This document shows, piece by piece, positions 39,624 through 59,345 of a stretch of 64,000 bases of DNA. Made by a program: the position numbers and the translations under genes. The DNA is from Vulcanimicrobiota bacterium. GTDB lineage: Bacteria; Vulcanimicrobiota; Vulcanimicrobiia; Vulcanimicrobiales; Vulcanimicrobiaceae. Numbering within the stretch: position 1 is the stretch's first letter; each line of letters opens with the position of its first letter. The notes below the pieces were generated by a model. That model was given only the letters and a program-made list of their open reading frames with translations. It ran no database searches and had not been told where the DNA came from. Location of the stretch: contig PLJL01000004.1 in the NCBI GenBank assembly GCA_003140215.1, positions 1,395,762 to 1,459,761 on the forward strand, in the 5' to 3' direction.

Positions 39624-40631
39624 CTATTTTATCAAGTACACGGTGATCGACCGGCGGCCGAACTGAAACGCCTGTGCGTTCGAGTTGAACCCGAGGTCGA
39701 TGCGGTTGCCGCGGATCGCACCGCCGGTGTCGCCCGCCACCGCGTGACCGTAGCCTGGAATGTACATGCGGGTCCCCAACGGTATCACCCGCGGGTCGAC
39801 CGCGACGATGCCGTGGCCGGCCGGCCGTCCGCTGGCGGTCGTGCCGCTGCAGCCCGCGCACTCGGCCGTGTACGCCGTCGCGACCATCGACAGCGCCGAG
39901 CTGGCGAACTTGAGCGTCCCGGCGACGTTGCGCTCGGCCAGCTCCGACAAGGCGGTGTACTCACCGATCCCCTCGGCGACGATGCGCGCGCGCGGCGCGC
40001 GCAGGACGCGTGAGACCAACGCGCTGCGCCGGACCGCCCTGCGATTGGCGCTACGGCTGACCGCATACGCGACTTCGGCCAGCCCCGGCTTTCCCGGGTC
40101 GATGACTTTGGAGGTACCCTCAGGCAGCGTAAACGCCCAGCGCTTGACCACCTTGGGCGCGATCTTCTTGCGGACGGTCTCCGTCCAAGCGTCGACGTGG
40201 GCAACGACAACGACGGTATCGTTCTCGAGCGCGCTGGCGGGGCCGGGCGCGATCGTATCGTGACGGTCGAAGGGTACTCGCTGCGCTCGCAGCAGGTCGG
40301 CCACGGACAGTGCGGCCGAGCGCAGAGCGCGGGGCTGGCCGTCGATCACGACGGTGACCGGGACGGCCGGCCGGTAGACGATCGTTTCGCCGTCCGTCAG
40401 CGAGCTGGCGGGGTCGACGGACAGGGCGTCTTCGGGGCTGCGGATCAGGTTGCGTTCGTAGAGCAGTTCGTCGGCGGTTTCGGCGCGGGTCTCGATGGTT
40501 TCGGGGAGGCCGTCGTGGACGAGCGTGACGTGCTTGACGGGGGCAGTGGACGCCAGCGCGGCGACCGTTTTGGCGACCCTATCGGGCACCGTGCCGGCGC
40601 CGAAGGGGATCAACAAACCCAAGGAAAGCAT
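39624..40631 (-). CDS. YabE-like protein: DUF348 repeats plus C-terminal 3D domain
   Basis: 335 residues from ATG 40631. A short hydrophobic N-terminal anchor or signal, two DUF348-like segments at about 35-80 (HVTLVHDGLPETIETRAETA) and 88-135 (PVTVVIDGQPRALRSAALSV), a G5-like region to about 200, then a 3D (Asp-Asp-Asp, MltA/RlpA-type) domain: MVATAYTAECAGCSG, DPRVIPLGTRMYIPGYG, and GDTGGAIRGNRIDLGF with the Asp residues. It probably cleaves or remodels peptidoglycan, as with Rpf/YabE/YocH proteins. In Gram-positives this gene also precedes rsmA; finding it in a TonB-carrying genome is notable. The 5' leader is long (over 300 nt). Confidence 0.87.
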   Translation of the reverse strand: MLSLGLLIPFGAGTVPDRVAKTVAALASTAPVKHVTLVHDGLPETIETRAETADELLYERNLIRSPEDALSVDPASSLTDGETIVYRPAVPVTVVIDGQPRALRSAALSVADLLRAQRVPFDRHDTIAPGPASALENDTVVVVAHVDAWTETVRKKIAPKVVKRWAFTLPEGTSKVIDPGKPGLAEVAYAVSRSANRRAVRRSALVSRVLRAPRARIVAEGIGEYTALSELAERNVAGTLKFASSALSMVATAYTAECAGCSGTTASGRPAGHGIVAVDPRVIPLGTRMYIPGYGHAVAGDTGGAIRGNRIDLGFNSNAQAFQFGRRSITVYLIK

Positions 40632-40740
40632 GCCCGTCGCCGCAAGCGGCGTTGGAAGATCGTTGCGGATCGTCCGACTCCTTTCTCGTGCGGAGGGTGC
40701 GTTCCATCAAGCCCGGATAGTAATCCGTGCCATTCTGGTT

Positions 40741-40918
40741 CGCACTCGACGTCGTAGCGGTGGTCGGCGAGCCTATCCCAAGCGGCAACGCTCGGTACTG
40801 GGGCAACCCAGGGGGCTCGGTCGAGTGCCCCCAGGACCCGACGGGTCCCGGTGAACCCGAGTACGGTACCACGGGCGTCCGGATCCCGTCAAATACAAGG
40901 GTCGTAGATCCGCGGGGG
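40741..40918 (+). ncRNA. candidate structured leader RNA (possible riboswitch)
   Basis: The 352-nt gene-free stretch 40632-40983 holds stacked hairpins. On the + strand they are CTGGG-GCAA-CCCAG (40798-40811, a GNRA tetraloop), GGGGGC/GCCCCC (40811-40832) and GGACCC-GAC-GGGTCC (40834-40848), followed by GGTGAACC and GATCCCGTCAAATAC...GGTCGTAG. The GNRA loop favours + strand transcription, toward the glycosyltransferase at 40984. GGTGAAxCC and CCGTCAxxTAxC resemble parts of the ydaO (c-di-AMP) riboswitch, but the match is partial and the class is unproven. Open frames through it lack family resemblance. Confidence 0.4.
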
Positions 40919-40983
40919 CCCCGTCTGGTACGCGCACGTGGCCCCAGGCGTCCCGCAATAGCCACGGCGAAGCTCCGTTTGCC

Positions 40984-42111
40984 ATGCAACCGCGCCGCGT
41001 AGGATTCTTCACCGAGTGCTACAAACCGATCGTGAACGGCGTCGTTGCCAGCATCGACGCACTGCACGACGGCTTGCGCGCGCACGGCGTCGACGTCACC
41101 ACGATCGCACCGCATTTTCCGCATTTCGTCGATGCCGAACGCGACGTCGTGCGCGTGCCCTCGCTGCCGCTTCCGACGCAGACCGCGTATCGTTTGTGCG
41201 TGCCCTACTTGAATGCGGACGACCGCGCACGGATGCGCGGCATCGACCTCGTGCACGCGCACTCGCCGTTCGTCACCGGCTGGATGGGCGCATCGTATGC
41301 GCGGCGACACCGCATTCCATTGGTGTTCACCTATCACACGCGGTTGGATGCCTACGCGCACTACGCGCCGTTCGACCGCGGTGCGACCGAGCGCGCGATG
41401 GTCGAGCTGACGCGCCGCTACGCCAATGCGGCCGACGCCGTCGTCGTGCCGACCGGCGCGATGGAGATCCGTTTGCGCGAGCTGGGCGTCCACGCTCCGA
41501 TCGCCGTCGTTCCCAGCGCGATCGACGTCGAGCGTTTCGCCGCGGGCCGGCGCAGCGCGATGGTGCGCGCGCGGTTGGGTGCCGACGACGACGCGCCCTT
41601 GGCGCTGGTCGTCTCGCGGCTGGGGATGGAGAAGAACGTCGAGCTCGTCCTCGACACGCTGCCGCTGCTGCCGCAGCTGCGCTTGGCCGTGGTGGGCGAC
41701 GGGCCCCACCGCGCCGCGCTCGAGGAGCGCGCGCGGCGGCTGGGTGTGGCGGGCCGCGTCAGGTTCACCGGCGCGCTCGACCGCGCCAGGCTCCCCGACG
41801 TGTACGCCTCGGTGGACGCCTTCGTATTTGCGTCGACCACGGACACGCAGGGCCTGGTGCTGGCCGAGGCGCTGGCCGCCGGCCTGCCCGTGGTGGCTGC
41901 GGACAGCGCGGCGTCCCGCGACGTGCTGGTCGGTGCGGGCCGGATCGTTCCGCCCGATCCGGCGGCCCTGGCGGCCGCCTTACGCGAAGCGTTGGCCGCC
42001 GGCCACGATCAGAGTGCCGTACATTTGGCATTCTCGCGGTTTACGGTGGAGATGCAAACGCGGCGAATCCTCGAGCTCTACCGGGAGGTGCTGGCCGCGC
42101 GCGCAGCCTGA
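40984..42111 (+). CDS. GT4 glycosyltransferase, glucosyl-diacylglycerol/PimB-like
   Basis: 375 residues from ATG 40984. The N-terminus VGFFTECYKPIVNGVVASI (GFFTExYxPxxNGVxxS) is the acceptor-side signature of GT4 enzymes that glycosylate diacylglycerol or phosphatidylinositol. The C-terminal donor site has VVSRLGMEKNVELVL and STTDTQGLVLAEALAAGLPV (EX7E). It likely makes membrane glycolipids. It is preceded by a structured leader and ends inside the first of the phased dyads (stop TGA 42109-42111). Confidence 0.85.
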   Translation: MQPRRVGFFTECYKPIVNGVVASIDALHDGLRAHGVDVTTIAPHFPHFVDAERDVVRVPSLPLPTQTAYRLCVPYLNADDRARMRGIDLVHAHSPFVTGWMGASYARRHRIPLVFTYHTRLDAYAHYAPFDRGATERAMVELTRRYANAADAVVVPTGAMEIRLRELGVHAPIAVVPSAIDVERFAAGRRSAMVRARLGADDDAPLALVVSRLGMEKNVELVLDTLPLLPQLRLAVVGDGPHRAALEERARRLGVAGRVRFTGALDRARLPDVYASVDAFVFASTTDTQGLVLAEALAAGLPVVAADSAASRDVLVGAGRIVPPDPAALAAALREALAAGHDQSAVHLAFSRFTVEMQTRRILELYREVLAARAA

Positions 42112-42174
42112 CGAATGTCAGCTCCGGCTGACGAATGTCAGCTCCGGCTGACGAATGTCAGCTCCGGCTGACTT
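42106..42174 (+). repeat. 20-bp tandem repeat of dyads, CTGACGAATGTCAG
   Basis: A 20-bp unit (gctccggctgacgaatgtca) is repeated: a partial copy, two full copies (42121-42140, 42141-42160), then a partial copy. Each holds a 14-bp dyad CTGAC-GAAT-GTCAG at 42108-42121, 42128-42141 and 42148-42161, and a last half-site at 42168-42172. The 20-bp spacing equals about two helical turns, placing all dyads on one DNA face directly upstream of the LexA-type promoter. Could be protein-binding sites or stacked RNA hairpins. Confidence 0.8.
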
Positions 42175-42201
42175 GACTCGAACATATGTTCGATATAGGA
42201 T
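42173..42201 (+). promoter_or_regulatory. LexA-type SOS box within a promoter
   Basis: TCGAACATATGTTCGA (42178-42193) is a perfect 16-bp palindrome. It matches the Bacillus/Actinobacteria LexA box (CGAAC-N4-GTTCG) exactly. It sits between a -35-like TTGACT (42173-42178) and a weak -10-like TAGGAT (42196-42201) at 17-bp spacing, the classic repressed arrangement. The predicted transcript would begin near 42208, so translation might be leaderless from ATG 42215 rather than ATG 42200. Confidence 0.8.
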
Positions 42202-42655
42202 GATCGCACGAGCCATGCAACAGACCGCCACTCGCCACCGCTCCGCCGACGTCGCCCTGGGCTACGCGGCCGACCGCTCCGGAACCGGGATCGCCTATGC
42301 GGCGATCGCGACGGGGACGGGCCGCGCCACCGTCAAGGTGCCCTTCAGCGCGGTACCCCTGGCCGCTCTCGAGGGCCGGGAGTTCGGCTACGCCGCGGTC
42401 GCGGCCGTCGGCGGGTACCTGCGCGGTCGCGGCTTCACCCGGATCCGCATGCGGCTCGCCGACGGCTCGCTCGTCGACGACCTCAACGCTCGAGGTTGCG
42501 TCCCGCCGGCGTTGGCGCTGGCCTACGTCAAGGCGCGCTGCACCCTGCACGGCTTCGCCGTCGCGCGCGTCGAACGCGGCGAACCGATTGAAACCAACGA
42601 CCTCGAGACCCGCGCCCGAGCCGACATCTCGCTCCAAACGACCGCCGCCGCCTGA
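42200..42655 (+). CDS. SOS-controlled RNase-H-fold protein
   Basis: 151 residues from ATG 42200 (ATG 42215 if the start follows the predicted transcript start). Its pattern fits the RNase HI-like fold: a first strand with ADRSGTGIAYAA, then LEGREFGYAAVAAVGGYLR (the helix that carries the second acid in RNase HI), then RMRLADGSLVDDLN (third acid), and finally IETNDLETRARA (last acid). All four acids could be present, but the first-strand motif is not the usual DGSxxxNPG. Family members cut RNA of RNA-DNA hybrids; some are inactive. Expressed with mpg from an SOS promoter, 25 nt apart, suggesting a DNA damage role. The assignment is by pattern only. Confidence 0.55.
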   Translation: MIARAMQQTATRHRSADVALGYAADRSGTGIAYAAIATGTGRATVKVPFSAVPLAALEGREFGYAAVAAVGGYLRGRGFTRIRMRLADGSLVDDLNARGCVPPALALAYVKARCTLHGFAVARVERGEPIETNDLETRARADISLQTTAAA

Positions 42656-42680
42656 CCCGTCGGGGCCGGCCGGCCGGCGC

Positions 42681-43265
42681 TTGAATCACGCCGACCTGCC
42701 GCACGAGACCAGCGCGCTCGCGCGCGCCCTCATCGGCAAGCTGCTGGTCCGCCGGCTCGAGGGCGAGCTCCTGGTCGGGCGCATCGTCGAGACCGAGGCG
42801 TACTTCGCCGACGACCCGGCCTCGCACGCCTTCCGCGGGATGACGCGGCGCAACCGCGCGATGTTCGGCCCGCCGTTGCATGCCTACGTCTACTTCATCT
42901 ACGGCACCAATTGGTGTCTCAACGTCACCAGCGAGAGTGAAGGTACCGGCGCGGCGGCGCTGGTGCGCGCCTGCGAACCCATCGGCGGCACGGCGACGAT
43001 GCGCGCGCTGCGCGGACGGCCCGCGCTGCGCGACCGCGACCTGGCGCGCGGGCCGGGGAACCTCTGCCGAGCCTTCGCGATCGGCCCCGAGTTCGACGGG
43101 GCCGACCTGTCGGCGAATCCGACGCTCTGGCTCGCCGACGACGGCACCATCCTGCCGACCGGGGTGAGCGCCCGGATCGGGATCAGCAAGGCCGCGGCGG
43201 AGCCGTGGCGCTTCTACGCCCAGGGCAACCGCAGCGTCAGCGGACCTCGCGCCTTGTCGCCCTGA
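42681..43265 (+). CDS. mpg: 3-methyladenine DNA glycosylase, AAG/MPG family
   Basis: 194 residues from TTG 42681 (LNHADLPHETSALARAL). MPG-fold signatures: LLVRRLEGELLVGRIVETEAYF with the catalytic Glu (GRIVETEAY), PASHAFRGMTRRNRAMFG, and HAYVYFIYGTNWCLNV, the Tyr-intercalating motif. It removes N3-methyladenine, hypoxanthine and other alkylated purines, starting base excision repair. Second gene of the SOS operon, which fits an alkylation/SOS response. Confidence 0.92.
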   Translation: MNHADLPHETSALARALIGKLLVRRLEGELLVGRIVETEAYFADDPASHAFRGMTRRNRAMFGPPLHAYVYFIYGTNWCLNVTSESEGTGAAALVRACEPIGGTATMRALRGRPALRDRDLARGPGNLCRAFAIGPEFDGADLSANPTLWLADDGTILPTGVSARIGISKAAAEPWRFYAQGNRSVSGPRALSP

Positions 43266-43380
43266 CGCGGCTGTGATAGACTGCGTTGCGTCGCGCGGTC
43301 TCGCACCGGCGACGTTCTCGTTCCTCGGCGCTTCGCGCCGACGAGCGGCCCCGGCAGCCTCGCCGGCCTGGCCGCGTCGT

Positions 43381-44814
43381 GTGAAACGCCCGTCTCCCCG
43401 AGGGAGCATTTCGCTGCAGTTCGACAATCGACCCCAGCACAACGGTAAGCCGGAAGGTGGCCGTCGCCGCCGTTCGCGGCGTAACCGCCAGCGTTTCAAC
43501 GAAGCCGGCGCGCCGCAGCAGCCGCACGACGTCTTCACCCAACCGGAGTTCCCGCAGGCCGTCGGGCCGCCGCTGCTCTCCGCCGACCAGCTCGCCGAGA
43601 TGAGCAAAGCCGAGCTCAACGAGCTGGCCAAGACCTTCGAGATCGAAAACCCGACCAAGATCAAGAAGGACGAGCTCGTCGCGCAGATCCTCGAGCTGCA
43701 AGCGCAGCGCAGCGGCCTCGAAAAGGCCAACGGCGTCCTCGACGTCTTGCCCGAGGGCTACGGCTTCCTACGTCGCGACGGCTACCTCGTCGGTGCGGAC
43801 GACATCTACATCTCGCAGTCGCAGATCCGGCGCTTCGAGCTGCGCCGCGGCGACCTCGTCGCGGGCCAAGTCCGCAAGCCCAAAGAGAACGAGAAGTATT
43901 ACGGTATCGTCAAGGTCGAGACGGTCAACGGCTACGCGCCCGAGGCGCTCGCCAACCGGCGGGTCTTCGAAGAGCTCGGCGCGGAACCGCCGACCCAGCG
44001 TTTCGTGCTCGAGACACGCGGCGATTTGGCGATGCGGGCGATGGACCTCTTCGCGCCGCTCGGCCGTGGCCAGCGAGCGCTCCTGCTCACGCCGCAGCGC
44101 GCCGACGAAGCCGCGCTGCTGGTGCGCATCGCAAGGGCGCTCGAAAAGAATCATCCCGACGCGCAGGTCATCGTCCTGCTCGTCGACGAGCGTCCCGAAG
44201 CGGTCACGCACTTCGGGCGCATGCTCGACGTCGAGGTCGTCGCGACCACGTTCGAAGAACACCCCGACAACCACGTGACGACCGCCGAGCTCGTCTTCGA
44301 GCGCGCCAAGCGACTCGCCGAGATCGGCCTCGACGCGGTCGTGCTCGTTTCGTCGTTCACGCGCCTGGTCCGTGCCTACGCCGCGATCTCGCACCACAAG
44401 GGCAATCCCGCACTGATGGACGCCGCGCTCTTGGGGCGCCCCAAGCGCCTGTTCGGAGCGGCGCGCGCCGTCGCCGGCGGGGGTTCGCTCACCGTGATCG
44501 CGGCGGCCGGCGCAGGCAGCTCCGCGCTCGATGCGCTCGTCGTCGAAGAGTTCTCGCCGGCGTCCAACGCCGAGATCGTGCTCTCGCGCGAGCTGGCCGA
44601 AGCGCGCGCGTATCCTCCCGTCGATCTCTTGCGCAGCGGCAACTCGTACGAGGAGCAGTTGCTCAGCGAGATCGCGCTGCACAAGGTGACCGATCTCCGC
44701 CGCGCCCTGGCGCGAACGCCGACGGTCGAAGCTTCGGAGCGGATCTATGCCGCGCTTGCGCGGACGGAGACGAACGACGAGTTCGTCACCAAGTTCGATC
44801 TGAAGAAGGTCTGA
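43381..44814 (+). CDS. rho: transcription termination factor Rho homologue with degenerate Walker A
   Basis: 477 residues from GTG 43381. A CTG at 43414 with GAGGGAG 7 nt upstream is a better-placed start and would shorten it to 466. It has a basic N-terminal insert (RRRRSRRNRQR), the Rho N-domain (LSADQLAEMSKAELNELAK), the RNA-binding cold-shock fold (GYGFLRRDGYLVGADDIYIS with QSQIRRFELRRGD) and the RecA-like core: Walker B VIVLLVDERPEAV, the R-loop SSFTRLVRAYA and RPKRLFGAARAV. The P-loop, normally APPKAGKT, reads TPQRADEA (residues 237-244): GKT is DEA (44104-44112). The Q-loop GGVD element is also changed. So RNA binding is likely but ATPase-driven translocation is not. If this is the only Rho, termination must work differently; otherwise it is a paralogue. 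Next gene overlaps its stop. Confidence 0.88.
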   Translation: MKRPSPRGSISLQFDNRPQHNGKPEGGRRRRSRRNRQRFNEAGAPQQPHDVFTQPEFPQAVGPPLLSADQLAEMSKAELNELAKTFEIENPTKIKKDELVAQILELQAQRSGLEKANGVLDVLPEGYGFLRRDGYLVGADDIYISQSQIRRFELRRGDLVAGQVRKPKENEKYYGIVKVETVNGYAPEALANRRVFEELGAEPPTQRFVLETRGDLAMRAMDLFAPLGRGQRALLLTPQRADEAALLVRIARALEKNHPDAQVIVLLVDERPEAVTHFGRMLDVEVVATTFEEHPDNHVTTAELVFERAKRLAEIGLDAVVLVSSFTRLVRAYAAISHHKGNPALMDAALLGRPKRLFGAARAVAGGGSLTVIAAAGAGSSALDALVVEEFSPASNAEIVLSRELAEARAYPPVDLLRSGNSYEEQLLSEIALHKVTDLRRALARTPTVEASERIYAALARTETNDEFVTKFDLKKV

Positions 44815-45569
44815 GACTCCAGAAATACCTCGCGGCGGCCGGCGTAGCGTCGCGCCGCCGCGCCGAGGAACTCATTGTCGCCGGACGGGTGCGCGTCGGC
44901 GGTCGCGTCGTGCGCGAGCTCGGCACGGGAGTCGAGGCGGATGCGCGGGTCGAGGTCGACGGACGTATCGTGCGGCCCGCCGCGACCCGCACCTACGTCG
45001 TGCTGCACAAGCCTCCCGGCGTGATGACGACGCTGCGCGATCCCGAGGGCCGGCGCACCGTCGCCGACGTCGTGCGCCGTGCCGGCGTCACGGCCCGCGT
45101 GCTGCCGGTCGGGCGGCTCGACTACGACACGAGCGGCGTGCTGCTGCTCACCGACGACGGCGAGATCACCAACATCCTCACGCATCCCCGCTTCGGTGTC
45201 GAGAAGACGTACCGCGCGACGCTGCGCGGCCGGCTCGAGCCGGCTGCCGTCGAGAAGATCTTGCGCGGCGTGCGCCTCGACGAAGGCCGCGCCGCGCCGG
45301 CGCTGGTGCGCGTCGTCGCGGTGCGGCGTGACGTCTCGCTCGTCGACATCACCATCCACGAGGGCCGCAACCGCCAGGTGCGCCGCATGTTCGAGGTCGT
45401 CGAGCATCCGGTGCTCGCGCTCGTGCGGCTGCGCTTCGGCCCGATCTCGCTGGGCGAGCTCGCCCCCGGCGCGGTCCGCCCCGTCACCGAGCGCGAGCTA
45501 GCCGCCCTCCACCGCATCGCCGCCGAAGCCAAAGACGACGCCGACTCGCGTAGCGAGTCCCCCGGGTGA
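44811..45569 (+). CDS. RsuA/RluB-family pseudouridine synthase with CTG start
   Basis: 252 residues starting at CTG 44811, inside the rho stop (CTGA). The N-terminus then reads LRLQKYLAAAGVASRRRAEELI, a perfect S4-domain opening for this family; the next possible standard start (GTG 44889) would delete the S4 domain. The catalytic Asp lies in VGRLDYDTSGVLLLT. HEGRNRQVRRMFE near the C-terminus is the family's signature. It isomerises uridines in 23S or 16S rRNA. The short C-terminal tail is charged. Coupled to rho by overlap. Confidence 0.9.
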   Translation: MRLQKYLAAAGVASRRRAEELIVAGRVRVGGRVVRELGTGVEADARVEVDGRIVRPAATRTYVVLHKPPGVMTTLRDPEGRRTVADVVRRAGVTARVLPVGRLDYDTSGVLLLTDDGEITNILTHPRFGVEKTYRATLRGRLEPAAVEKILRGVRLDEGRAAPALVRVVAVRRDVSLVDITIHEGRNRQVRRMFEVVEHPVLALVRLRFGPISLGELAPGAVRPVTERELAALHRIAAEAKDDADSRSESPG

Positions 45570-45642
45570 AAGAAAGCAGCATGGTCTTTCGCGCGCCCTG
45601 GGGGAACGTTGCCTTATGGTAGTCGCGAGCGCGCGCACGGTC

Positions 45643-45700
45643 GGGGGCCCCATCGCGGAGCGATGGGGGGCGCGGAGCCAGGGGCGGAGCGCCGTTAAAC
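45643..45700 (+). repeat. family B leader repeat upstream of chorismate mutase
   Basis: Hairpin CCCCATCGC-GGA-GCGATGGGG (45648-45668), then GGCGC (45669-45673) pairing with GCGCC (45689-45693) around an AGCC.GGGGCGGA loop, then GTTAAAC, 17 nt before the aroH start. Same architecture as 29597-29653; the first stem differs by compensating changes on both arms. A tail-only remnant (gggcggagcgccgtgaaacc) precedes moaC at 54657-54676. Confidence 0.6.
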
Positions 45701-45716
45701 ATGCGAGCCGCCAACC

Positions 45717-46082
45717 GTGATTCTTCGCGGCATTCGCGGCGCGACTACCGTATTGCGGGACGAGCCGGCGCTGATTTTGGCGGCGACCGAACGGCTGTTG
45801 CGCGAGATCGTTGCGCGCAACGGCTTTGTCCCCGAAGACGTGGCGTCGGCGTTGTTCACGGTCACGCCGGACTTGATCTCGGAGTTCCCGGCCGCGGCCG
45901 CGCGGGGGATCGGCTGGACGCTGGTTCCGCTGTTGAATTTCACCGAAATCGGGGTACCCGGAAGGTTGGAACGCTGCATCCGGGTCTTGATTCATATCAA
46001 CACCGACCTGACCCAGGACCGGATTGCGCACGTCTACCTCGAGGGAGCAACCGTCCTGCGGCCGGACCTCGCCGGGCGCTAG
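45717..46082 (+). CDS. aroH: chorismate mutase, AroH class
   Basis: 121 residues from GTG 45717. The trimeric AroH fold is recognisable: LRGIRGATTVLRDEP at the N-terminus (with the active-site Arg of RGATT), then FTVTPDLISEFPAAAAR and a C-terminal VLIHINTDLTQDRIAHVYLEGA with the Cys/Arg region before it (GRLERCIRV). It converts chorismate to prephenate for Phe and Tyr. It has its own structured leader of family B, so it may be regulated separately. Confidence 0.92.
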   Translation: MILRGIRGATTVLRDEPALILAATERLLREIVARNGFVPEDVASALFTVTPDLISEFPAAAARGIGWTLVPLLNFTEIGVPGRLERCIRVLIHINTDLTQDRIAHVYLEGATVLRPDLAGR

Positions 46083-46084
46083 CT

Positions 46085-46114
46085 GCAACCGCAGTTGCGG
46101 GCGCTAGGCGCCCG
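46085..46114 (+). terminator. tandem hairpins after aroH
   Basis: Two back-to-back stems just after the aroH stop: GCAAC-CGCA-GTTGC (46085-46098) and CGGGCGC-TAG-GCGCCCG (46098-46114). The second is a strong 7-bp GC stem. No T-run follows, so an intrinsic terminator is uncertain; it could also stabilise the mRNA 3' end. Confidence 0.45.
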
Positions 46115-46251
46115 GCAGGTGAAGGGCCAACGGTGAGGCAATCGCGCTCGGTCGCAGCGTGCGTCGTGAGTCGCCGGAGACCCGCGCACCAGGAACTGAC
46201 CGCGTCCCTCGCGCGTTAGTCCCCGTACCCCACCGCATGTCACGAGGTATC

Positions 46252-47589
46252 ATGGCTCATCCGACCTCTCGTCTGTTCGCCGCGCTCGCGCTCGGAACGC
46301 TCGCGCTCGCCGTGAGCCCGCCCGGCGCCTGGGCGCAGACCTCGACCTACTACACGCCGCCGAAGATGATCAAGCAGGCGCAGACCAGCGTCACGATCGC
46401 CGGCACCGGCGCGGTCACGGTCCAAGTCTTCGTGCACAAGGACGGTACGATCGGCACGATGACGCTGAAGAAGTCGACCAATCACGGCGACGACGCAGCG
46501 GCACTCGACATCGCGAAGAACTCGAGCTACAAGGCCGGCGTGCGGGACGGGAAACCGATCGATGCCTACTACACGATGGCGCTCAAGTTCAACGGCTCGT
46601 CGGTCGTCAACGATACCGGAACGAGCTCGAACCAGCTGCTTGCCGCGAACGGCCTGATTCGCGCCGGCAAGTACGCCGAAGCGAAGGCCGAGGTCGATAG
46701 CTACTTGAGCTCCCACGCCGGCGACAAGAACGCCGAGCTGCTGCTCGGCATCGCCGACACCTACCTCAACGATGCGCCAGGAGCGGTGGCCGCGTTCGAC
46801 CAGGCCGGAACGATCCCCGAGCGCTTCCAGGTCGCGGCGGCAAAAGCATATGCCGACGCCGCCGTCGCCGCGCTCAAAGCGAAGAACAACGACCTGGCCA
46901 TCGCCTTGGCGGACAAAGCCCTCGCGCAGCAGGTCAACGTCAACACGTTGTTCATCCGCGGGACCGCCTACGCGAACGCGCAGAAGTACCCGCAGGCGAT
47001 CGCCGACCTCGAGCGGGCCAAGACCAATGCGGTCTCCGGCAAGGCCGACACCGCGACGATGAACGCGATCGACGCCTCGCTGGCGACGTCGTACATCTTC
47101 GGGGGCCAGACCGACAAGGGCGTCGCGCTGGCGAAAGCGCTCAAGGCCCGCGATCCCTCGAACACCCGCGTCGACGACACCTTGGCGGCGTACTACAACC
47201 AGCAGGCCATCGCCGCGATGAACGCGGGCAAGAAGGCCGAGGCTGTGGCCGACCTCGAGGCCGCGGCGAAGGCTGTCCCATCGCGAGCCGTCATCCTCTA
47301 CGTTCAGGCGGCCAACATCCTCTCGCAAGGCGACAAGCCCGACTGGAGCGTCGTAAAGGCGGAAGCCGACAAGGCGCTCGCCATCAACGCCAACGACGCG
47401 CGCGCCAACTACGTCGCTGGGATCGCGCTCGCCAACGCGCTCGACCCCAAGGGCGCCAAGCCCGACACGAAGCCTGCGCTGGCATACCTCCAGAAGGCCA
47501 AGGCCAACGTCGGCGCGGACGCATCCCTCAGCGCCGATATCGACAAGGCCATCGCGGCGCTCGCCAAGATGGGTACGCCCAAGCAGTAG
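46252..47589 (+). CDS. exported TonB-C-like plus TPR protein of the TonB operon
   Basis: 445 residues from ATG 46252, preferred to ATG 46237 because GAGG lies 5-9 nt upstream. Signal peptide (LFAALALGTLALAVSPPGAWAQ). Residues about 35-105 resemble a TonB C-terminal domain (VTIAGTGAVTVQVFVHKDG, with AALDIAKNSSYKAG), the fold that touches receptors. Residues about 110-440 are TPR-like helix pairs, Ala/Lys/Asp-rich. First gene of a co-directional run with exbB, two exbD genes and tonB. Possibly a periplasmic adaptor in TonB-driven transport. The preceding 169 nt holds two hairpins but no gene. Confidence 0.72.
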   Translation: MAHPTSRLFAALALGTLALAVSPPGAWAQTSTYYTPPKMIKQAQTSVTIAGTGAVTVQVFVHKDGTIGTMTLKKSTNHGDDAAALDIAKNSSYKAGVRDGKPIDAYYTMALKFNGSSVVNDTGTSSNQLLAANGLIRAGKYAEAKAEVDSYLSSHAGDKNAELLLGIADTYLNDAPGAVAAFDQAGTIPERFQVAAAKAYADAAVAALKAKNNDLAIALADKALAQQVNVNTLFIRGTAYANAQKYPQAIADLERAKTNAVSGKADTATMNAIDASLATSYIFGGQTDKGVALAKALKARDPSNTRVDDTLAAYYNQQAIAAMNAGKKAEAVADLEAAAKAVPSRAVILYVQAANILSQGDKPDWSVVKAEADKALAINANDARANYVAGIALANALDPKGAKPDTKPALAYLQKAKANVGADASLSADIDKAIAALAKMGTPKQ

Positions 47590-47714
47590 GAATGGACGGC
47601 GGTGCCGCCAACACCTAGGCCCGCGTCGGGGGCACCGCGCCGTCGCCGTCGGCCTAGCCCGGCCCGGTAGCCGGACTCCCCAGCTCGCTCGAAGACTCGG
47701 AGGCTACACCAGAG

Positions 47715-48392
47715 TTGTTGGATTTCAAAGGCTTTTTCTCCATGATCAACGCGGGCGGCCCGGCGATGTATATGCTGCTCGTCATGTCGATCGCCGCCGT
47801 AGCCATCGTCATCGAGCGACTGCTCTTCTTCGCGAGCCAGCACTCGGACTCGAAGGGCCTGCTGCGGTCGATCGGCCAGCGCATCGCTGCCGACGACCTC
47901 GACGGCGCGATCAAGATCTGCCAGCAGAACAAGGGCATGCTCCCGAAGATTCTGGAATTCGGCCTGCAGCGCGGCGAGAAGAACCGCGCCGACATCACCG
48001 ACGCCCTCTCGATCGCCCTCATGGAGAACCTCAACTCCCTGGAGCGCAATCTCGGCGTCATCGGCACGATCGCCGTCATCGCTCCCTTCGTCGGGTTGTT
48101 CGGGACCGTGCTCGGCATCATCCGCGCCTTCCAGGACATCGCCCTCAAGGGCAACTCGACCCCGGCCGTCGTCGCGGCGGGCGTCTCGGAAGCGCTGATC
48201 ACGACCGCTGCGGGGCTGTTCGTGGCCGTGATCGCGGTCATTTTCTTCAACTACTTCAAGACCCGGATCAAGGCGTACAACCAGGAGATGATCGTGGCGG
48301 CCAACCAGCTCGCCGAGATGCTCCACTTCCACAACACCGGTACGCCGATCCCGACCGACCTGTACAAGCCGTCGCCCGCCGGGTCACCCTAA
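47715..48392 (+). CDS. exbB: ExbB/TolQ-type proton channel subunit
   Basis: 225 residues from TTG 47715 (TTG 47718 or ATG 47742 are alternatives). Three hydrophobic helices at about 12-36, 118-142 and 158-184. MotA/TolQ/ExbB features: NLNSLERNLGVIGTIAVIAPFVGLFGTVLGIIRAF and EALITTAAGLFVAVIAVIF, with the Thr/Ala positions of the proton path. It forms the pentameric channel around ExbD and drives TonB. Followed by two exbD genes, so it may use alternative ExbD partners. Confidence 0.9.
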   Translation: MLDFKGFFSMINAGGPAMYMLLVMSIAAVAIVIERLLFFASQHSDSKGLLRSIGQRIAADDLDGAIKICQQNKGMLPKILEFGLQRGEKNRADITDALSIALMENLNSLERNLGVIGTIAVIAPFVGLFGTVLGIIRAFQDIALKGNSTPAVVAAGVSEALITTAAGLFVAVIAVIFFNYFKTRIKAYNQEMIVAANQLAEMLHFHNTGTPIPTDLYKPSPAGSP

Positions 48393-48422
48393 CCTGAACC
48401 TCACGGCCGGAGAGCTCGACTC

Positions 48423-48836
48423 ATGAGCATGGTGTCCGCCCAGCAGGACGATGCGGTGATGGCCGAGATCAACATCACGCCGTTCACCGACGTGCTGCTG
48501 GTCCTGCTCATCATTTTCATGATCCTGGCAGCGCTCGTGGCGCCGCCTGGTTTCGAAAAGCAACTTCCCGACAAAAACGACAACACGCCGGTGCAGCAAC
48601 AGAAGAAGACCGACAGCATCGAGGTGCTCGTCAACGAAACCGGGGTAATCTATGTCGACGGCAAGCGCACCGACGAGGCGCACATCTATGCCGACATGTC
48701 CGACGTCCGGCGCCGCCGTGGCGACAAGCACGTATCGCTGACGGCGGACGTCAAGGCGCCCTACGGCACGATCATCAGGATCCTCGACGCTGCCAAGATC
48801 GCGGGCCTCGAGGACGTCGGTTTCGTCACCTCGTGA
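48423..48836 (+). CDS. exbD: ExbD/TolR-type subunit (first)
   Basis: 137 residues from ATG 48423, with GGAGAG upstream. A single N-terminal helix with the membrane-buried proton-accepting Asp in INITPFTDVLLVLLIIFMI, then a periplasmic domain including YVDGKRTD. It uses the proton gradient with ExbB. A paralogue follows directly; two ExbD subunits could form heterodimers or serve different receptors. Confidence 0.92.
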   Translation: MSMVSAQQDDAVMAEINITPFTDVLLVLLIIFMILAALVAPPGFEKQLPDKNDNTPVQQQKKTDSIEVLVNETGVIYVDGKRTDEAHIYADMSDVRRRRGDKHVSLTADVKAPYGTIIRILDAAKIAGLEDVGFVTS

Positions 48837-48892
48837 GCACGCCCAACATTTCCGGCAAAGCCGGAAGCCGCTAGGAAAAGGAAGCCCGCTTC

Positions 48893-49321
48893 GTGGCCGT
48901 CACCACCGGACAAGGCGAAGAAGAAGTGATGTCGACGATCAATATCACGCCCTTCACGGACGTGCTGTTGGTCCTGCTGATCATCTTCATCATCCTCGCC
49001 TCGGTCGTCAAAGAGCCTCGGCTCCCTGACGCCAAGAACAAGATCAAGGTCCATCCCTCGCAGATCGTGGTGCTCGTCGACGAGAAGAACCAGGTGCAGA
49101 TCGGTTCGAACATCGTCAACGAGATGCAGGCGAAGGAGCAGTTCGCGCAACTCGTCAAGTCGACGGGCAGCGGCCTCAAGACGGTCATCATCAAGGCGAA
49201 CCCCAAGGCGAGCTTCGGCACGATCTTGCGCGTGATGGACGCGGCCAAGTCGGCGAACCTCACCACCTTCGGGCTGGCCAACCACATCGAAGGCTTGCCG
49301 GAAGGCGCAACGGGCACCTAG
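48893..49321 (+). CDS. exbD: ExbD/TolR-type subunit (second)
   Basis: 142 residues from GTG 48893. Same design as the preceding gene: INITPFTDVLLVLLIIFII with the essential Asp, then a periplasmic domain with HPSQIVVLVDEKNQVQIGS. The stop is immediately followed by the tonB ATG (zero spacing). Some systems with two ExbD proteins serve special receptors or gliding motors; here tonB linkage argues for nutrient import. Confidence 0.92.
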   Translation: MAVTTGQGEEEVMSTINITPFTDVLLVLLIIFIILASVVKEPRLPDAKNKIKVHPSQIVVLVDEKNQVQIGSNIVNEMQAKEQFAQLVKSTGSGLKTVIIKANPKASFGTILRVMDAAKSANLTTFGLANHIEGLPEGATGT

Positions 49322-50080
49322 ATGGCGAACACGCCCGACTCGGCGCCCCCGGTCTACACGTCCGAGCGGGCCAAGAGCTTCCTTGTCTACGGCTTCGCGA
49401 TCTCGATCGTGTTGCACCTGACCCTCGGACCACTCTTGCCGAAAGAGCGCACGCAAGTCGAAGAAGACCAGCCGCAAAAGGTGACGGTCGTGCGCGTCCC
49501 GACACCGCCGCCGACGCCGCCGCCGACTCCGACCCCGCACCCGACGCCGCCGCCGACGCCGCCGCCCAAGACGACGCCGCCCCCCAACACGCCCGCGCCG
49601 CAGCAGCCCAAGATCAAGATCAACACGCAGAAGACCGAGTCGAAAACGAACACCGGTCCCAGCGAAGCGACCAACAAGTACACGACGGGCAACACGCAGG
49701 GCATCCCGCAGGGCTTGGGCACCTCCGCGCCGTCGACCGCCCCGCCGGCGACGCCGGCTCCCGCGCCGCCGACGCCGCAGCCGACGCGTACCCCGCAGTC
49801 GTGCGCGCGACCCAATGTCCCCGCGTCCACCATTCACGCGATCGAGCCCGATACGCCGGCGCTGGCGCAGCAACAGGGGATCCAAGGCACGGTTCAAGTC
49901 GTCGTTTCGCTCAACGAGGGCAGTCGCGTCACCGGCACCCGCGTGCAGAGCTCGCCCAGCGCGGTGCTCAACCAGGCCGCACTCTCGGCGGCGCGGCAAT
50001 CGTCGTTCCAAACCGAGATCCGCGATTGCAAGCCGATCGCCGCAGACTACATCTTCAGCGTCGAGTTCACTTCGCAATAA
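49322..50080 (+). CDS. tonB: TonB energy-transducing protein
   Basis: 252 residues from ATG 49322. One N-terminal helix (SFLVYGFAISIVLHLTLGPLL), with the His of SxxxH that couples to ExbB-ExbD. A long Pro-rich periplasmic span (PTPPPTPPPTPTPHPTPPP) follows. The C-terminal domain (residues about 165-250) has the TonB pattern: QGTVQVVVSLNEGSRVTGTRV, then SSPSAVLNQAALSAARQSSF. It transmits energy to outer-membrane receptors such as the one at 11349. Last gene of the operon; PilZ is convergent. Confidence 0.93.
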   Translation: MANTPDSAPPVYTSERAKSFLVYGFAISIVLHLTLGPLLPKERTQVEEDQPQKVTVVRVPTPPPTPPPTPTPHPTPPPTPPPKTTPPPNTPAPQQPKIKINTQKTESKTNTGPSEATNKYTTGNTQGIPQGLGTSAPSTAPPATPAPAPPTPQPTRTPQSCARPNVPASTIHAIEPDTPALAQQQGIQGTVQVVVSLNEGSRVTGTRVQSSPSAVLNQAALSAARQSSFQTEIRDCKPIAADYIFSVEFTSQ

Positions 50081-50114
50081 CCCTGGCGCGAAGGGGCGGG
50101 GCTCCGGTTTGGGG

Positions 50115-50477
50115 CTAGATTACGCCCAGGTCGCGGAGTTTGTACATCATGTCGATGTAGCCTAGGAGCTGCGACTCTTGTTCCGGCGTGCGGCCGGTGA
50201 ACTCGATCCCGGTGCGAAACTTGCCGAGCGCGTCGTCGAAGCGGCACCAACGGACCTCGCCGGTGAGCTGGAGCGCCGGCCGCGGATCGCCGCGCAACTC
50301 CAGCTCGAGCCGCAGCGACTGTCCCGACGGAAGCTCGCTATCGCACAGCATCGCCAAGCCGCCCAGGCCGATGTCGTACGTTTCGGTACGTGCCGCGGCA
50401 AAGTCGCCGCCGATCGTGTATGCAACCAGCAGCGGCGCGTCGGCCAGGCGGCGGTGCGAGCGCGCGTCACTCACCAC
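50115..50477 (-). CDS. PilZ-domain c-di-GMP-binding protein
   Basis: 120 residues from GTG 50477. PilZ fold alone: the RxxxR-like SDARSHRRLADAPL and the DxSxxG-like YDIGLGGLAML bind c-di-GMP in family members (here Gly replaces Ser in the second motif). Short cytosolic PilZ proteins regulate motility, polysaccharide or transport machinery. Divergent from uppP with 35 nt between; the window also encodes an HD-GYP c-di-GMP phosphodiesterase candidate at 60344. Confidence 0.82.
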   Translation of the reverse strand: MVSDARSHRRLADAPLLVAYTIGGDFAAARTETYDIGLGGLAMLCDSELPSGQSLRLELELRGDPRPALQLTGEVRWCRFDDALGKFRTGIEFTGRTPEQESQLLGYIDMMYKLRDLGVI

Positions 50478-50512
50478 TACGCCTTCCTCGCGAGCGGGAA
50501 AGCCTCCCCCGC

Positions 50513-51394
50513 GTGCGAACCGACCCGCTCGTGACGTTCGCGCAGGCGATGATACTCGCGGTGCTGCAAGGCGTCAGCGAGCTGTTCCCGGTCAGCAGCC
50601 TCGGGCACACGGTACTCGTCCCCGCGCTGCTGCGGTGGGGCGTCGACGAAGGCTCCGACTCGTTCCTGGCGTTCGTCGTCGTGCTGCACCTCGGAACGGC
50701 GCTGGCGCTGATCGCGTTCTATCGGTCCGATTGGGTCCGAATCGTGCGCGCGTTCGTCGCCAGCATCGTGCGGGGCCGTTTCAGCGACGACGTCGACGAG
50801 CGCACCGCGTGGCTGCTCGTCGCCGCCACGATACCGGTCGGCATCCTGGGCGTGCTGCTCGAGTCGAGCGTCAAGAAGCTCTTCGCTTCGCCGATCCCGG
50901 TGTCGGCGTTCCTGCTCGTCAACGGCTTCATCATGCTGCTGGGCGAGCGGCTGCGGCGCCGCCAGCACCCTGCTACCGGCTCCGGCAAACAGTATCGGCG
51001 GCTCGAAGAGCTCACGCCGCAAGATGGCGTGATGGTGGGTTTCGCGCAATCGCTCGCCCTGCTGCCGGGGATCTCGCGCTCCGGCTCCGCAATCGTGGCG
51101 GGGCTCCTGCGCGACCTGCACCACGAGGACGCAGCGCGCTATTCGTTCCTGTTGGCAACGCCTGTCATCCTCGCCGCGAGCGTGCTCGAATTCCCCAAGC
51201 TCTTCGTCCCCGGCGCGCACGTCGTGCTCCAGCAAGCCGTCATCGGCGGCATACTAGCCGGCGTCACCGCCTACGCATCGGTCGCATTCTTGACCCGCTA
51301 TTTCCGCCACAACGACCTCTCGCCGTTCGCCTGGTACTGCATCGCCGCCGGAGCGCTTTCGCTCACCCTCTTCGCCACGAAAGTAATCGCATGA
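50513..51394 (+). CDS. uppP: undecaprenyl-diphosphatase
   Basis: 293 residues from GTG 50513 (GTG 50531 is an alternative). About eight hydrophobic helices with both BacA/UppP signatures: ILAVLQGVSELFPVSSLGHT and LALLPGISRSGSAIVAG. It dephosphorylates undecaprenyl diphosphate at the membrane, recycling the lipid carrier for peptidoglycan and envelope glycans; bacitracin resistance is a side effect. The stop overlaps the start of the small membrane protein. Confidence 0.93.
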   Translation: MRTDPLVTFAQAMILAVLQGVSELFPVSSLGHTVLVPALLRWGVDEGSDSFLAFVVVLHLGTALALIAFYRSDWVRIVRAFVASIVRGRFSDDVDERTAWLLVAATIPVGILGVLLESSVKKLFASPIPVSAFLLVNGFIMLLGERLRRRQHPATGSGKQYRRLEELTPQDGVMVGFAQSLALLPGISRSGSAIVAGLLRDLHHEDAARYSFLLATPVILAASVLEFPKLFVPGAHVVLQQAVIGGILAGVTAYASVAFLTRYFRHNDLSPFAWYCIAAGALSLTLFATKVIA

Positions 51395-51564
51395 AAACGC
51401 TAGCGCTGGTACTCGCCGCCGTCCTCCTCGTCATCGCCGTCCTCTACTGGACCGGCCACGCCATCCCCACCGGAGTCCACACCAAACACGGCATCGTAGC
51501 AATAGTCCTAGCCCTACTCTGCCTAGTCTGGTACCGCTTCCAATCGGCAACCCCAGCCCGCTGA
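51391..51564 (+). CDS. 57-residue two-helix membrane protein
   Basis: Starts at ATG 51391 (ATGA overlap with uppP). Residues 2-20 and 33-48 are hydrophobic, joined by GHAIPTGVHTKHGIVA, with a basic C-terminus. No family recognised; coupling suggests it works with UppP or the same membrane step. Base use is slightly lower in GC than the neighbours. Confidence 0.6.
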   Translation: MKTLALVLAAVLLVIAVLYWTGHAIPTGVHTKHGIVAIVLALLCLVWYRFQSATPAR

Positions 51565-51587
51565 CCCCCTCCCGCCGAGCGACAGCG

Positions 51588-52502
51588 CTACTTCTTCCCG
51601 ATCACGTAGATCTCGTCAGGATCCTTCTCGACGACTTCAACACTCGCGCGATGCTCGCGCATGAGCCGCTCGAACCGCGCAGCATCACGCAGCGTCGTCT
51701 GCAAGATCACATACGGGGAAGCCGCCGCGGCCAAGAGGACGTCGCCGACCGCCCGGTCGTAGCTCGCATCGTCGTTGGTCGTCGCGCCGAACACCGTATC
51801 GCGATACAACCGCTCCACGTTGAGATACGGATCTCCCTGCCACCACGCTTCCCACATCCAGACGCGCGCGTCGATCCGCTTCGCGCCGCTGCGCCCCGGC
51901 GGCGCAAGGTACACGGCGTCCGCACGCACCGCACCCAGCGTGGCCGCGAAGTCCCCGCGGCGCACGGTATTGCGCTTACCGTTCTCGACCACCCAGCGCT
52001 CGATCTCGCGGATGTGATGCCAGGCCAGCTCGCTGGGCGGGATGTCGACCATCTCGTCGGGGTTGCGGGCTTTGAGCAGCCAGTGACACAGCACGTGCCA
52101 GAGCCCGGCGACGGCGAGTCCGGTCTGCCCGTCACTGCGCAGCGCGTGGACGTTGGCGTGCCACACGCCCAGATAGCGACACTGGTCCTCGCTGAAGAAG
52201 ACGCCTTCCCAGGCGCGAAACTGATCGGTCGGATAGATGCGCCCGGGGAGCATCTCGACGACCTCGGCGACCTCGCTGTCGCGCAGCAGCGTGAAGTCGT
52301 TGACGACCAGGCCTTCGCCGGCGCGCACGAACCACTCCAAAAGATCGCCCCCGTGCACCGCCAGGCCGTGCCGCTTGAGGACGTTGAGGTGCATCGGTAG
52401 GCCCATGAAGGGGTCGACGACGCTGCCGATCCCACGCGCCAGCGCGAGGTCGAGCAGCCGCGTCCCCGAGACGCGCCGGGTGCGGGCCGGGAGATCGATC
52501 AT
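51588..52502 (-). CDS. degenerate D12-type adenine methyltransferase-like protein
   Basis: 304 residues from ATG 52502. The N-terminal part has VVDPFMGLPMHLNVLKRHG, like the DPFxGxG SAM site of D12 (Dam/DpnIIA) methylases, then GGDLLEWFVRAGEGLVVND as the acidic follow-up. A long insert with Trp/His follows. Near the place where D12 enzymes have DPPY, the sequence is DAVYLAPPGR (DPPY is APPG), so base methylation is unlikely. It overlaps the HD protein gene by 4 nt. It may bind SAM or DNA without catalysis. The assignment is by pattern only. Confidence 0.45.
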   Translation of the reverse strand: MIDLPARTRRVSGTRLLDLALARGIGSVVDPFMGLPMHLNVLKRHGLAVHGGDLLEWFVRAGEGLVVNDFTLLRDSEVAEVVEMLPGRIYPTDQFRAWEGVFFSEDQCRYLGVWHANVHALRSDGQTGLAVAGLWHVLCHWLLKARNPDEMVDIPPSELAWHHIREIERWVVENGKRNTVRRGDFAATLGAVRADAVYLAPPGRSGAKRIDARVWMWEAWWQGDPYLNVERLYRDTVFGATTNDDASYDRAVGDVLLAAAASPYVILQTTLRDAARFERLMREHRASVEVVEKDPDEIYVIGKK

Positions 52503-53578
52503 ATCTCGGTCTCCAACATGCGCAGGTACGTGCTCGTGACACGCGGGTCGAACTGCGTCCCGGCCGCAGCGCGCAGCCGCCGTGAGGCCTCCAACCGGGG
52601 GAGCGCGTCGACCGCCAGGACCAGCGCGAGCAACGCGGCGAGCGGTTCCATCGCGCCGTCCTCGTGCCAGGCGGCGGAGGCGGCGAGAAAGGGTGCGTCG
52701 GCCGCGTAGCGCTCGACCGATGCCGCGATCCCGGCGGCGCGCTGGGCGGCCGCGGTGCGGCGCTCGCGCGCGAACCGCGAGAGCGGGTCGAAGTCGTCGT
52801 GCGGTACGTCGGCGGCGGCTCGACCAAGCGCGAGCAGCCGGCTCAGGCGGCCGGCATGGGCGGGATCGAGGTCGAGCCGCCCCGCCAGCGTCCCGGCGAG
52901 CTCCGCCAGCCGTTCGCTGCGCCCGGCGGTTCGGGAATCCCGCGCGTCGATCCGCGCGGCCAACTCGGCGCAGGCGCGGTCGGCGTCGAGGGCCGACACG
53001 GCGACGTCGAGGGGTCCGTCCCAGTCCTCCGGCGCGGTGCTCACGAACTCGCGGAACGCGCGCACCAGCTCGATGCGAAAGCGGCGGCCGCTCTCGGCGA
53101 CGATCGCGAAGACTGCCTCGGTGGCCTCGCGCGGCTCGTCCGGATCCTCCACCGCCTCGAGGAAGGCCTGGGCGATTCCCAGCGCCGCAGCGTCGTTGGG
53201 AATGCCGTCCCAGCGCAGGCGGTCGGGGACCCCGGTCCCGTCGTCGTGCTCGCGATGCCAGCGCACGGTGTCGGCGGCACCGGGCGGCAAGCCGGGCAGC
53301 GCGCCGACGATACGTGCAGCGTGCAGCGGTGCGTCGGCCAGCGCCAGGACCTGTTGTTGCGCCGTCGCGTCGGGGCCGATGACGACCTCGACGAGCCCGA
53401 TCTCGGCGAGCGCGCCCGCGACCCAGTTGGCGGCTACATTGCGGTCGTCGCCCCCGCGGTGACGCGCGAAGCGCGCCGCGAGCGCGGCGCGACGGCGCCC
53501 GAAACCGAGCCTCCGCCCCGCGAACGCATCGCCGACCGCGCTGTACAACCCCAGCGCACCACCTGCCGCATCATTCAT
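52499..53578 (-). CDS. HD-GYP-like phosphohydrolase, second half degenerate
   Basis: 359 residues from ATG 53578. In the first half, HAARIVGALPGLPPGAADTVRWHREHDDGTGVPDRLRW includes an HxExxDGxGxP pattern like the HD-GYP region, and DVAVSALDADRAC follows. The usual HD metal pair is not obvious, and the second half is helical without motifs. Possibly a c-di-GMP-related protein or a regulator. Its start codon overlaps the cysteine synthase start on the other strand by two bases, leaving no room for a promoter between them; the real start of one gene is likely internal. Confidence 0.55.
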   Translation of the reverse strand: MNDAAGGALGLYSAVGDAFAGRRLGFGRRRAALAARFARHRGGDDRNVAANWVAGALAEIGLVEVVIGPDATAQQQVLALADAPLHAARIVGALPGLPPGAADTVRWHREHDDGTGVPDRLRWDGIPNDAAALGIAQAFLEAVEDPDEPREATEAVFAIVAESGRRFRIELVRAFREFVSTAPEDWDGPLDVAVSALDADRACAELAARIDARDSRTAGRSERLAELAGTLAGRLDLDPAHAGRLSRLLALGRAAADVPHDDFDPLSRFARERRTAAAQRAAGIAASVERYAADAPFLAASAAWHEDGAMEPLAALLALVLAVDALPRLEASRRLRAAAGTQFDPRVTSTYLRMLETEI

Positions 53579-54653: not shown

Positions 54654-54669
54654 CGATGGGCGGAGCGCC

Positions 54670-57854: not shown

Positions 57855-58207
57855 GCGCGCTCGACACGATCGAGCTGCGCGGGATCCGAGCGTGGGGACA
57901 CCACGGGGCCGACCCCGGCGAACAAACCGTCGCGCAACCGCTCGACATCGATCTCGCTTTCGAGCTCGATCTTGCGGCGGCGCGCGGTAGCGACGACCTC
58001 GCCGACACGGTGAACTACGCGCAGGTGCACGCCGACGTCGTGCGCATCGTCGCGGGGGGGCGCTTCGCGTTGCTCGAACGGCTCGGCGACGCCATCCTCG
58101 AGGCGCTCATGGCCGACCCGCGCATCGTGCGCGCGCGCATCGCGATCGCCAAGCCGGGCCTGCTTGCCGGTGCGACCCCGGCCGTCGCGCTGCAGCGCGA
58201 ACGCTGA
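57851..58207 (+). CDS. folB: dihydroneopterin aldolase
   Basis: 118 residues from ATG 57851 (ATGA overlap). T-fold: IELRGIRAWGHHGADPGEQ, with the conserved Glu near the N-terminus, and DTVNYAQVHADVVRIVAG, then LERLGDAILEAL and IAIAKPG. It forms 6-hydroxymethyl-7,8-dihydropterin. Six nucleotides separate it from folK. Confidence 0.93.
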   Translation: MSALDTIELRGIRAWGHHGADPGEQTVAQPLDIDLAFELDLAAARGSDDLADTVNYAQVHADVVRIVAGGRFALLERLGDAILEALMADPRIVRARIAIAKPGLLAGATPAVALQRER

Positions 58208-58212
58208 CCGCG

Positions 58213-59327: not shown

Positions 59328-59345
59328 GCCCTGCTATCGTGGCGC

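Follow-up and report, generated by a model that had tools for sequence, protein, structure and literature searches.

We report that a Rho homologue encoded in the window, the whole 64,000-nt stretch of DNA that was analysed, has lost the residues of the ATP-driven motor and has retained those of the primary RNA-binding site. Judged from its sequence, the protein is homologous to Rho by descent and fails the motor features that define Rho activity. Our main reading, to which we assign a probability of roughly 0.6, is that it is a vertically inherited Rho that would have lost its motor and been kept as an ATP-independent RNA-binding protein. The window genome belongs to the Eremiobacterota and carries the same genus code (g1, 11 genomes) as Vulcanimicrobium alpinum WC8-2 (G005), a cultured bacterium with a complete circular chromosome that also encodes a dead Rho; the accessible text of PMC9758169 gives the length of this chromosome as 3,508,363 bases.

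The frame at 43381–44814 (forward strand, as for all features below unless stated) is open, and its product matches the Rho profile NF006886 (419 bits, E 1.4e-125), passing the cut-off of 315 bits, and scores 414.3 bits against TIGR00767, which is under the rho equivalog cut-off of 509.45 bits. Pfam searches revealed Rho_N, Rho_RNA_bind and ATP-synt_ab domains, the closest solved structures are those of Rho, and the architecture of Rho_N, Rho_RNA_bind and a RecA-type core is that of Rho. Translation probably starts at a CTG (43414), giving a protein of probably 466 aa (43414–44814), and 7 bases upstream of this codon lies a putative Shine–Dalgarno sequence, gagggag (43400–43406), within a purine-rich stretch found at the same place in relatives. 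The rho start place is a CTG in 16 of the 17 loci compared, the window copy included and dead and active genes alike (a script did not locate the start place in the 17th, L015), and the GTG at 43381, from which the frame had been drawn in the preliminary description, has no support from a Shine–Dalgarno sequence or from conservation. Such a conserved non-standard start could point to translational regulation. The protein begins with a basic extension (43414–43575) containing RRRRSRR (43462–43482), an extension that active relatives have too, followed by the Rho_N helix bundle (PF07498; 43588–43716) and the Rho_RNA_bind OB domain (PF07497; 43729–43944).

The accessible text of PMC4499133 lists Walker A and B, the catalytic Glu, the Arg valve, the Arg finger, the Q-loop and the R-loop as essential motor motifs of Rho; the limits of the P-loop, Q-loop and R-loop were taken from the corresponding text of PMC1950744, and R366 is named as the Arg finger in that of PMC11829017. 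In an alignment to E. coli K-12 Rho, the P-loop of the window protein (44089–44112) reads TPQRADEA instead of APPKAGKT, with K181R, G183D, K184E and T185A, so the preliminary description was right that GKT is replaced by DEA at 44104–44112. It was also right that the Q-loop (44389–44421) is altered and shortened, having lost its GG. Two elements that it considered intact turned out otherwise: the supposed Walker B, VIVLLVDERPEAV, is the catalytic-Glu segment, in which the catalytic Glu (E. coli E211) is kept as part of DERPE (44185–44199), and the true Walker-B Asp (D265) is Ser (44350–44352); the R-loop (44515–44526) has one residue fewer, with Lys326 replaced by Ala. Beyond the damage listed at first, therefore, Asp265, Lys326 of the R-loop and the Arg finger R366, which is Ser (44644–44646), have been lost, and K336 is Ser as well. 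The same alignment revealed that R212, R269 and R272 are kept beside E211, both in the window protein and in genus g1.

These changes extend to all eight alignable Rho proteins of the genus: Lys184 is Asp or Glu, D265 is Ser or Gly, and R366 is Ser, Trp, Phe, Met or Val in 8/8 rows, with E211 kept in 8/8. The secondary RNA site (the Q-loop GG, and R-loop K326 with its neighbours) is lost in g1 too. At the primary RNA-binding site, the 13 positions checked are as in active relatives, in the eight g1 rows and in two rows from the neighbouring genus g19, with the exception of the Q59 position, which is Ala in one of the eight g1 rows. The choice of these 13 positions partly reflects our own assumption as to which residues form the site, and the assignments in E. 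coli Rho other than the cited motif limits and R366 are likewise those that we presume. Compared with bacterial Rho as described by NF006886 and TIGR00767, the window protein shares the domain order, full-length homology, the place before rluB and the primary RNA-binding residues, whereas the Walker A Lys and Thr, the Walker B Asp, the Arg finger, the Q-loop GG and the R-loop Lys are missing. The residues fit the earlier proposal of a protein that would bind RNA and would not translocate. That the protein could still be an ATPase, by means of non-canonical residues or of another P-loop close by, gains something from the retention of the catalytic Glu, R212, R269 and R272 in g1, but we consider it very unlikely given the loss of Lys184, Asp265 and Arg366 in every g1 row, and the translated window frame, read by eye, contains neither GKT nor GKS anywhere that might serve as a substitute P-loop.

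The destroyed P-loop recurs in 8/8 readable genomes of g1, in the form P-x-R-x-[N/D]-[D/E]-[A/S]; in the other three genomes (G003, G006 and G009) contig breaks or fragments leave the P-loop unreadable. In G003 the contig ends inside rluB, and we rejected a real loss of rho there; we likewise rejected a real absence at rluB in G006, where the contig also ends inside rluB and an N-terminal Rho fragment lies elsewhere, and G009 carries a C-terminal part of Rho only. In g19 both Rho proteins are also dead, with another pattern: K184 is Ala and E211 is Gly, D265, T185 and R366 are kept, and the C-terminus is shortened. The remaining 20 of the 30 aligned Rho loci have an intact GKT, and the nearest intact relative by identity is G038, of genus g29. 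A sequencing or assembly error at 44095–44115, which would have restored GKT, is excluded in practice by the dead motif in all eight readable genomes, a complete, circular chromosome being among them.

A wider survey placed these genera among mostly intact relatives. The window protein found some match in 114 of 118 related genomes, several of the matches being weak and of ATPase type. Within the family, the Rho RNA-binding domain was detected in 79/99 genomes and the PPKAGKT pattern in 69/99; 12 of the 79 have the domain without the pattern, namely nine of g1 (counting G006, whose fragment stops before the P-loop), two of g19, and G023. Outside the family the pattern occurs in 40/45 genomes, and of the five that lack it G102 and G111 have no Rho match, G087 and G089 have weak ATPase-type matches and G115 has pieces of Rho. 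A rough motif finder applied to 80 named loci from genome contigs returned a GKT-type P-loop in 72 and a dead motif in four, and missed the place in four; the four dead loci (G002, G008, G010 and G054, 'Candidatus Eremiobacterota' MAGs) are among those already counted. The match in G023 was set aside as a further dead Rho: judged from one ORF list, it contains GATRAGKT and looks foreign. This Rho-like frame (L164, 3–1031, reverse strand, at the start of G023:C39), in which GVRPEE replaces DERPE, has a folP-like frame close by; its contig includes N, and the frame may be contamination. Separately, L104, a record titled Pleurocapsa minor (a cyanobacterium), holds a Rho gene, even though cyanobacteria are reported to be without Rho (PMC13289151), and is perhaps a misbinned contig.

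The preliminary description had offered two alternatives, a second, active rho in the genome or termination without any need of Rho ATPase activity. No second active Rho was found in the window's own genome (assembly 86.7% complete) by searches with PF00006, PF07497 and a PPKAGKT DNA pattern; PF00006 matched four times and PF07497 once, the latter match being the window rho, and the DNA pattern did not occur. Nor was a second Rho found in the complete V. alpinum genome, where PF07497 matched once and the PPKAGKT pattern was absent. The incompleteness of the window assembly might be cited in favour of an artefact of sequencing or assembly, or of an active Rho elsewhere in the genome with the window gene as its inactive second copy, but a dead Rho occurs in eight genomes, one of which, a hybrid assembly, is a complete chromosome that yielded no second Rho, and we regard either idea as extremely improbable. 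The other alternative is supported: with rho lost altogether from sister genera, the lineage appears to do without Rho ATPase.

Evidence for this loss comes from the locus. Upstream of rho in the window lie a G5/3D-domain protein (encoded on the opposite strand), a family-4 glycosyltransferase, an ORF without a Pfam match and a methylpurine-DNA glycosylase (PF02245; 42708–43265); directly downstream are an RluB-type pseudouridine synthase (44811–45569), whose start is uncertain, a frame-compatible CTG overlapping the rho stop, and then a type I chorismate mutase (45717–46082), the next conserved neighbour. The rluB start in the window may thus also be CTG. The ORF without a Pfam match (42155–42655, 166 aa) belongs to an unnamed family and has matches of 36–42% identity next to the glycosylase of six rho-less relatives. 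The link to the pseudouridine synthase that had been pointed out holds in 8/8 rho-bearing genomes whose rluB locus reaches rho (G000, G005, G009, G016, G021, G028, G034 and G038), where rho stands directly before rluB; the 'SOS operon' said to precede the gene was not recovered, there being no SOS gene among the seven neighbours scanned. The conserved row is glycosyltransferase, ORF, methylpurine-DNA glycosylase, [rho], rluB and chorismate mutase, and rho is missing between glycosylase and rluB in 7/8 rho-less genomes examined at the locus (G013, G015, G017, G026, G030, G040 and G049), in which the glycosylase match ends approximately 2–80 bases before the rluB match; the eighth, G031, has a glycosyltransferase at that place instead of the glycosylase. 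These counts leave out the rho-less G024, G025, G032, G047 and G048, and G023. In intact relatives, too, rho precedes rluB, which makes loss rather than gain of rho the simple reading.

In an RpoB tree the family splits in two: one side consists of 17 sampled genomes, all with intact Rho, and the other, clade B, of 18 genomes comprising the rho-less genera together with g1, g19 and g29 (SH-aLRT 93). A tree of RpoB, NusG and RluB with fewer genomes (15 versus 3) supported the split at 100/100 and grouped the intact g29 with the dead g19 (74/85). An AU test did not reject a clade of g1 and g19 (p 0.28) and gave p 0.02 for g1 with g29; the motor may have been lost once or twice, both being compatible with the three-gene tree and the AU test. 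As a side observation from five genomes, the clade whose Rho motor was lost seems to have a split rpoBC unit: rpoB and rpoC are about 20 kb apart in the window genome (G000:C3, 391–3606 and 23522–27001), about 30 kb apart in V. alpinum (G005:C1) and on different contigs in the rho-less G015 (C3 and C1), and they lie within 3 kb of each other in the Rho-intact G021 (C5) and G077 (C8).

The outright loss of rho in seven sister genera (eight genomes examined at the locus) is also what would be expected if Rho had become dispensable, the P-loop had been lost first and the gene were a long-lived near-pseudogene awaiting deletion. The preliminary description had suggested that the gene is not decaying and had proposed an alignment with dN/dS as a check. 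Each alignment half was given a single omega under the MG+F3X4 codon model of IQ-TREE, which printed kappa as 1. For the eight g1 rho genes, omega was 0.047 over residues 66–190 and 0.130 over residues 191–470; the corresponding values were 0.067 and 0.025 for active Rho from 13 of 15 sister-clade loci and 0.036 and 0.006 for active Rho from four loci of the next family, and RpoB of six g1 genomes gave 0.064. Fixing omega at 1 lowered the log-likelihood of the g1 genes from -1212 to -1389 (a cost of 177) for residues 66–190 and from -3922 to -4224 (a cost of 302) for residues 191–470. The RNA-binding half of g1 Rho is thus as constrained as active Rho and RpoB, and the constraint on its motor half is about five times weaker than in active relatives, yet that half is far from neutral; since a single omega was fitted per half with kappa at 1 and synonymous sites have diverged, the residual selection on the C-terminal half could partly reflect an overall folding constraint. 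At finer scale, omega in g1 versus active Rho was 0.023 versus 0.045 for the OB domain, 0.050 versus 0.089 for the helix bundle, 0.153 versus 0.018 for the catalytic segments and 0.115 versus 0.027 for the rest of the C-terminal half. Walker A, the Q-loop and the R-loop are among the fastest-evolving stretches in g1, with mean pairwise identities of 0.62, 0.70 and 0.65 versus 0.99, 0.95 and 0.93 in active relatives, and the OB domain has an identity of 0.96. The claim that the gene is not decaying is therefore borne out in the sense of purifying selection, omega lying far below 1 in both halves. Slow decay finds further support in the relaxation of the C-terminal half and in the shortened C-terminus of g19, but selection on the RNA-binding half speaks against it, as do the absence of an internal stop from the eight full-length g1 frames and the large likelihood cost of omega 1 even in the C-terminal half; we judge it an improbable account and the second rival of our main reading.

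A termination route that does not rest on Rho ATPase raises the question of intrinsic terminators. A rough test for a hairpin and T-tract after gene 3′ ends, relying on home-made gene calls from 400 kb of each genome (64 kb in the case of the window and 150 kb in that of E. coli), found such sites at 2.8% of ends in V. alpinum (reverse strand 2.8%, shuffled 1.7%; n = 144), at none in the window (reverse 0, shuffled 0.9%; n = 22), at 9.7% in the rho-less G015 (reverse 8.6%, shuffled 3.4%; n = 93), and at 10.8% and 11.5% in the Rho-intact G021 (reverse 10.8%, shuffled 3.6%; n = 111) and G034 (reverse 11.5%, shuffled 4.6%; n = 104). The E. coli control gave 29.1% (reverse 14.5%, shuffled 2.5%; n = 55), a two-fold sense excess. 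No excess of the sense over the reverse strand was seen in any of the five Eremiobacterota sets, and two-way terminators may exist, as all of these sets but the window exceed shuffled sequence. Over whole stretches, sites per 100 kb, observed versus Markov-shuffled, numbered 10.2 versus 6.8 in V. alpinum, 7.8 versus 4.7 in the window, 25.0 versus 18.8 in G015, 23.8 versus 24.5 in G021, 38.0 versus 21.2 in G034 and 56.0 versus 40.7 in E. coli; a standard terminator scan of window positions 40001–60000 returned 14 sites versus 11.0 (sd 3.2) in shuffles. In convergent gaps, T-tracts stood at 28% and 39% of 18 ends each in two intact genomes (shuffled 6% and 0), at 11% of 18 ends in G015 (shuffled 6%) and at 0/38 ends in V. 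alpinum (shuffled 0), where G+C content confounds the comparison. The convergent-gap hairpins of V. alpinum, too, are stronger than shuffled ones (mean -18.1 versus -15.2 kcal/mol), which leaves room for hairpins that act even though no T-tract follows. In this rough scan we saw no compensation by canonical intrinsic terminators. Nor did purine bias serve as a sign of Rho loss, the differences in coding purine fraction being too small to use (0.498 in V. alpinum, 0.491 in the window and 0.498 in G015 versus 0.502 and 0.500 in intact genomes).

Taken with these data, the main reading suggests the following mechanism. Rho would have become dispensable as a motor in this clade, with g1 keeping the protein for RNA binding and sister genera deleting the gene. 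By sequence, the nucleotide site and the RNA grip of the ring interior, formed by the Q-loop and R-loop, are destroyed, leaving the catalytic Glu and some arginines, and the primary RNA site, helix bundle and basic N-terminal extension are preserved. The OB domain would probably still bind C-rich single-stranded RNA, without ATP, and g1 Rho would probably be a static oligomer, an RNA-occupying or scaffold protein rather than a translocase, incapable of translocation and of classical termination. If the motor has been lost and the protein kept only as an RNA binder, termination in the clade would not rest on Rho ATPase. A broader version, which we hold more tentatively and rate somewhat below even odds, is that g1 Rho may be a selected, static RNA-binding pseudo-ATPase regulator, possibly polymerase-bound, in a clade with neither a Rho motor nor abundant canonical intrinsic terminators that would use an unknown termination route, the motor possibly having been lost twice.

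In the main rival reading, dead Rho would bind elongating RNA polymerase and/or NusG together with nascent RNA, and would stall, inactivate or protect the polymerase without translocating. NusG was found in 27/28 genomes searched (25 above cut-off), dead-Rho and rho-less ones included, but its retention in rho-less genomes means that its presence says little. According to the accessible text of PMC9908020, open-ring E. coli Rho sits on RNA polymerase before it engages RNA, yet termination is still postulated there to need ring closure and translocation. We consider such a stand-by role unlikely, though it ranks ahead of slow decay.

Several known systems resemble the RNA-binding, motor-dead Rho proposed here in part. 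The E. coli Rho E211A and M. tuberculosis Rho E386A mutants are reported in the excerpted text of PMC4499133 to have lost ATP hydrolysis and kept the oligomer, RNA binding also being kept in E386A. These mutants are engineered single changes that keep ATP binding, whereas in g1 Rho the nucleotide site was lost by natural evolution and the catalytic Glu retained. Rho inactivated by stacking, through Psu, ADP or ppGpp, demonstrates that non-translocating Rho assemblies exist (accessible text of PMC11829017 and PMC11718236), but the stacked form is a state of an active enzyme, whereas in g1 Rho the motor residues are gone. Synechococcus has no known Rho and terminates 22% of its units intrinsically, as stated in the available part of PMC13289151; cyanobacteria and this clade would thus share life without a Rho motor and with few canonical intrinsic terminators, with the difference that cyanobacteria, on the same partial source, have no known Rho homologue and g1 keeps a selected, motor-dead one. 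In titles and abstract openings of the literature, with the 2013 phyletic and 2024 (PMC11347177) Rho surveys outside the scope, we found no natural P-loop-less Rho.

Since V. alpinum WC8-2 is available in culture and its genome is complete, the expression, RNA targets and polymerase binding of its dead Rho, and the 3′ ends of its transcripts, are directly measurable. Rho is regarded as above all a motor, and the termination field is still asking whether its binding of RNA and polymerase achieves anything in the absence of translocation. In this clade, evolution would have separated the two functions of Rho, the motor being gone and the RNA-binding half remaining under selection, beside lineages that deleted the gene. 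Should most transcripts be ended neither by Rho nor by intrinsic terminators, the clade would join the cyanobacteria as a place in which to look for unknown termination.
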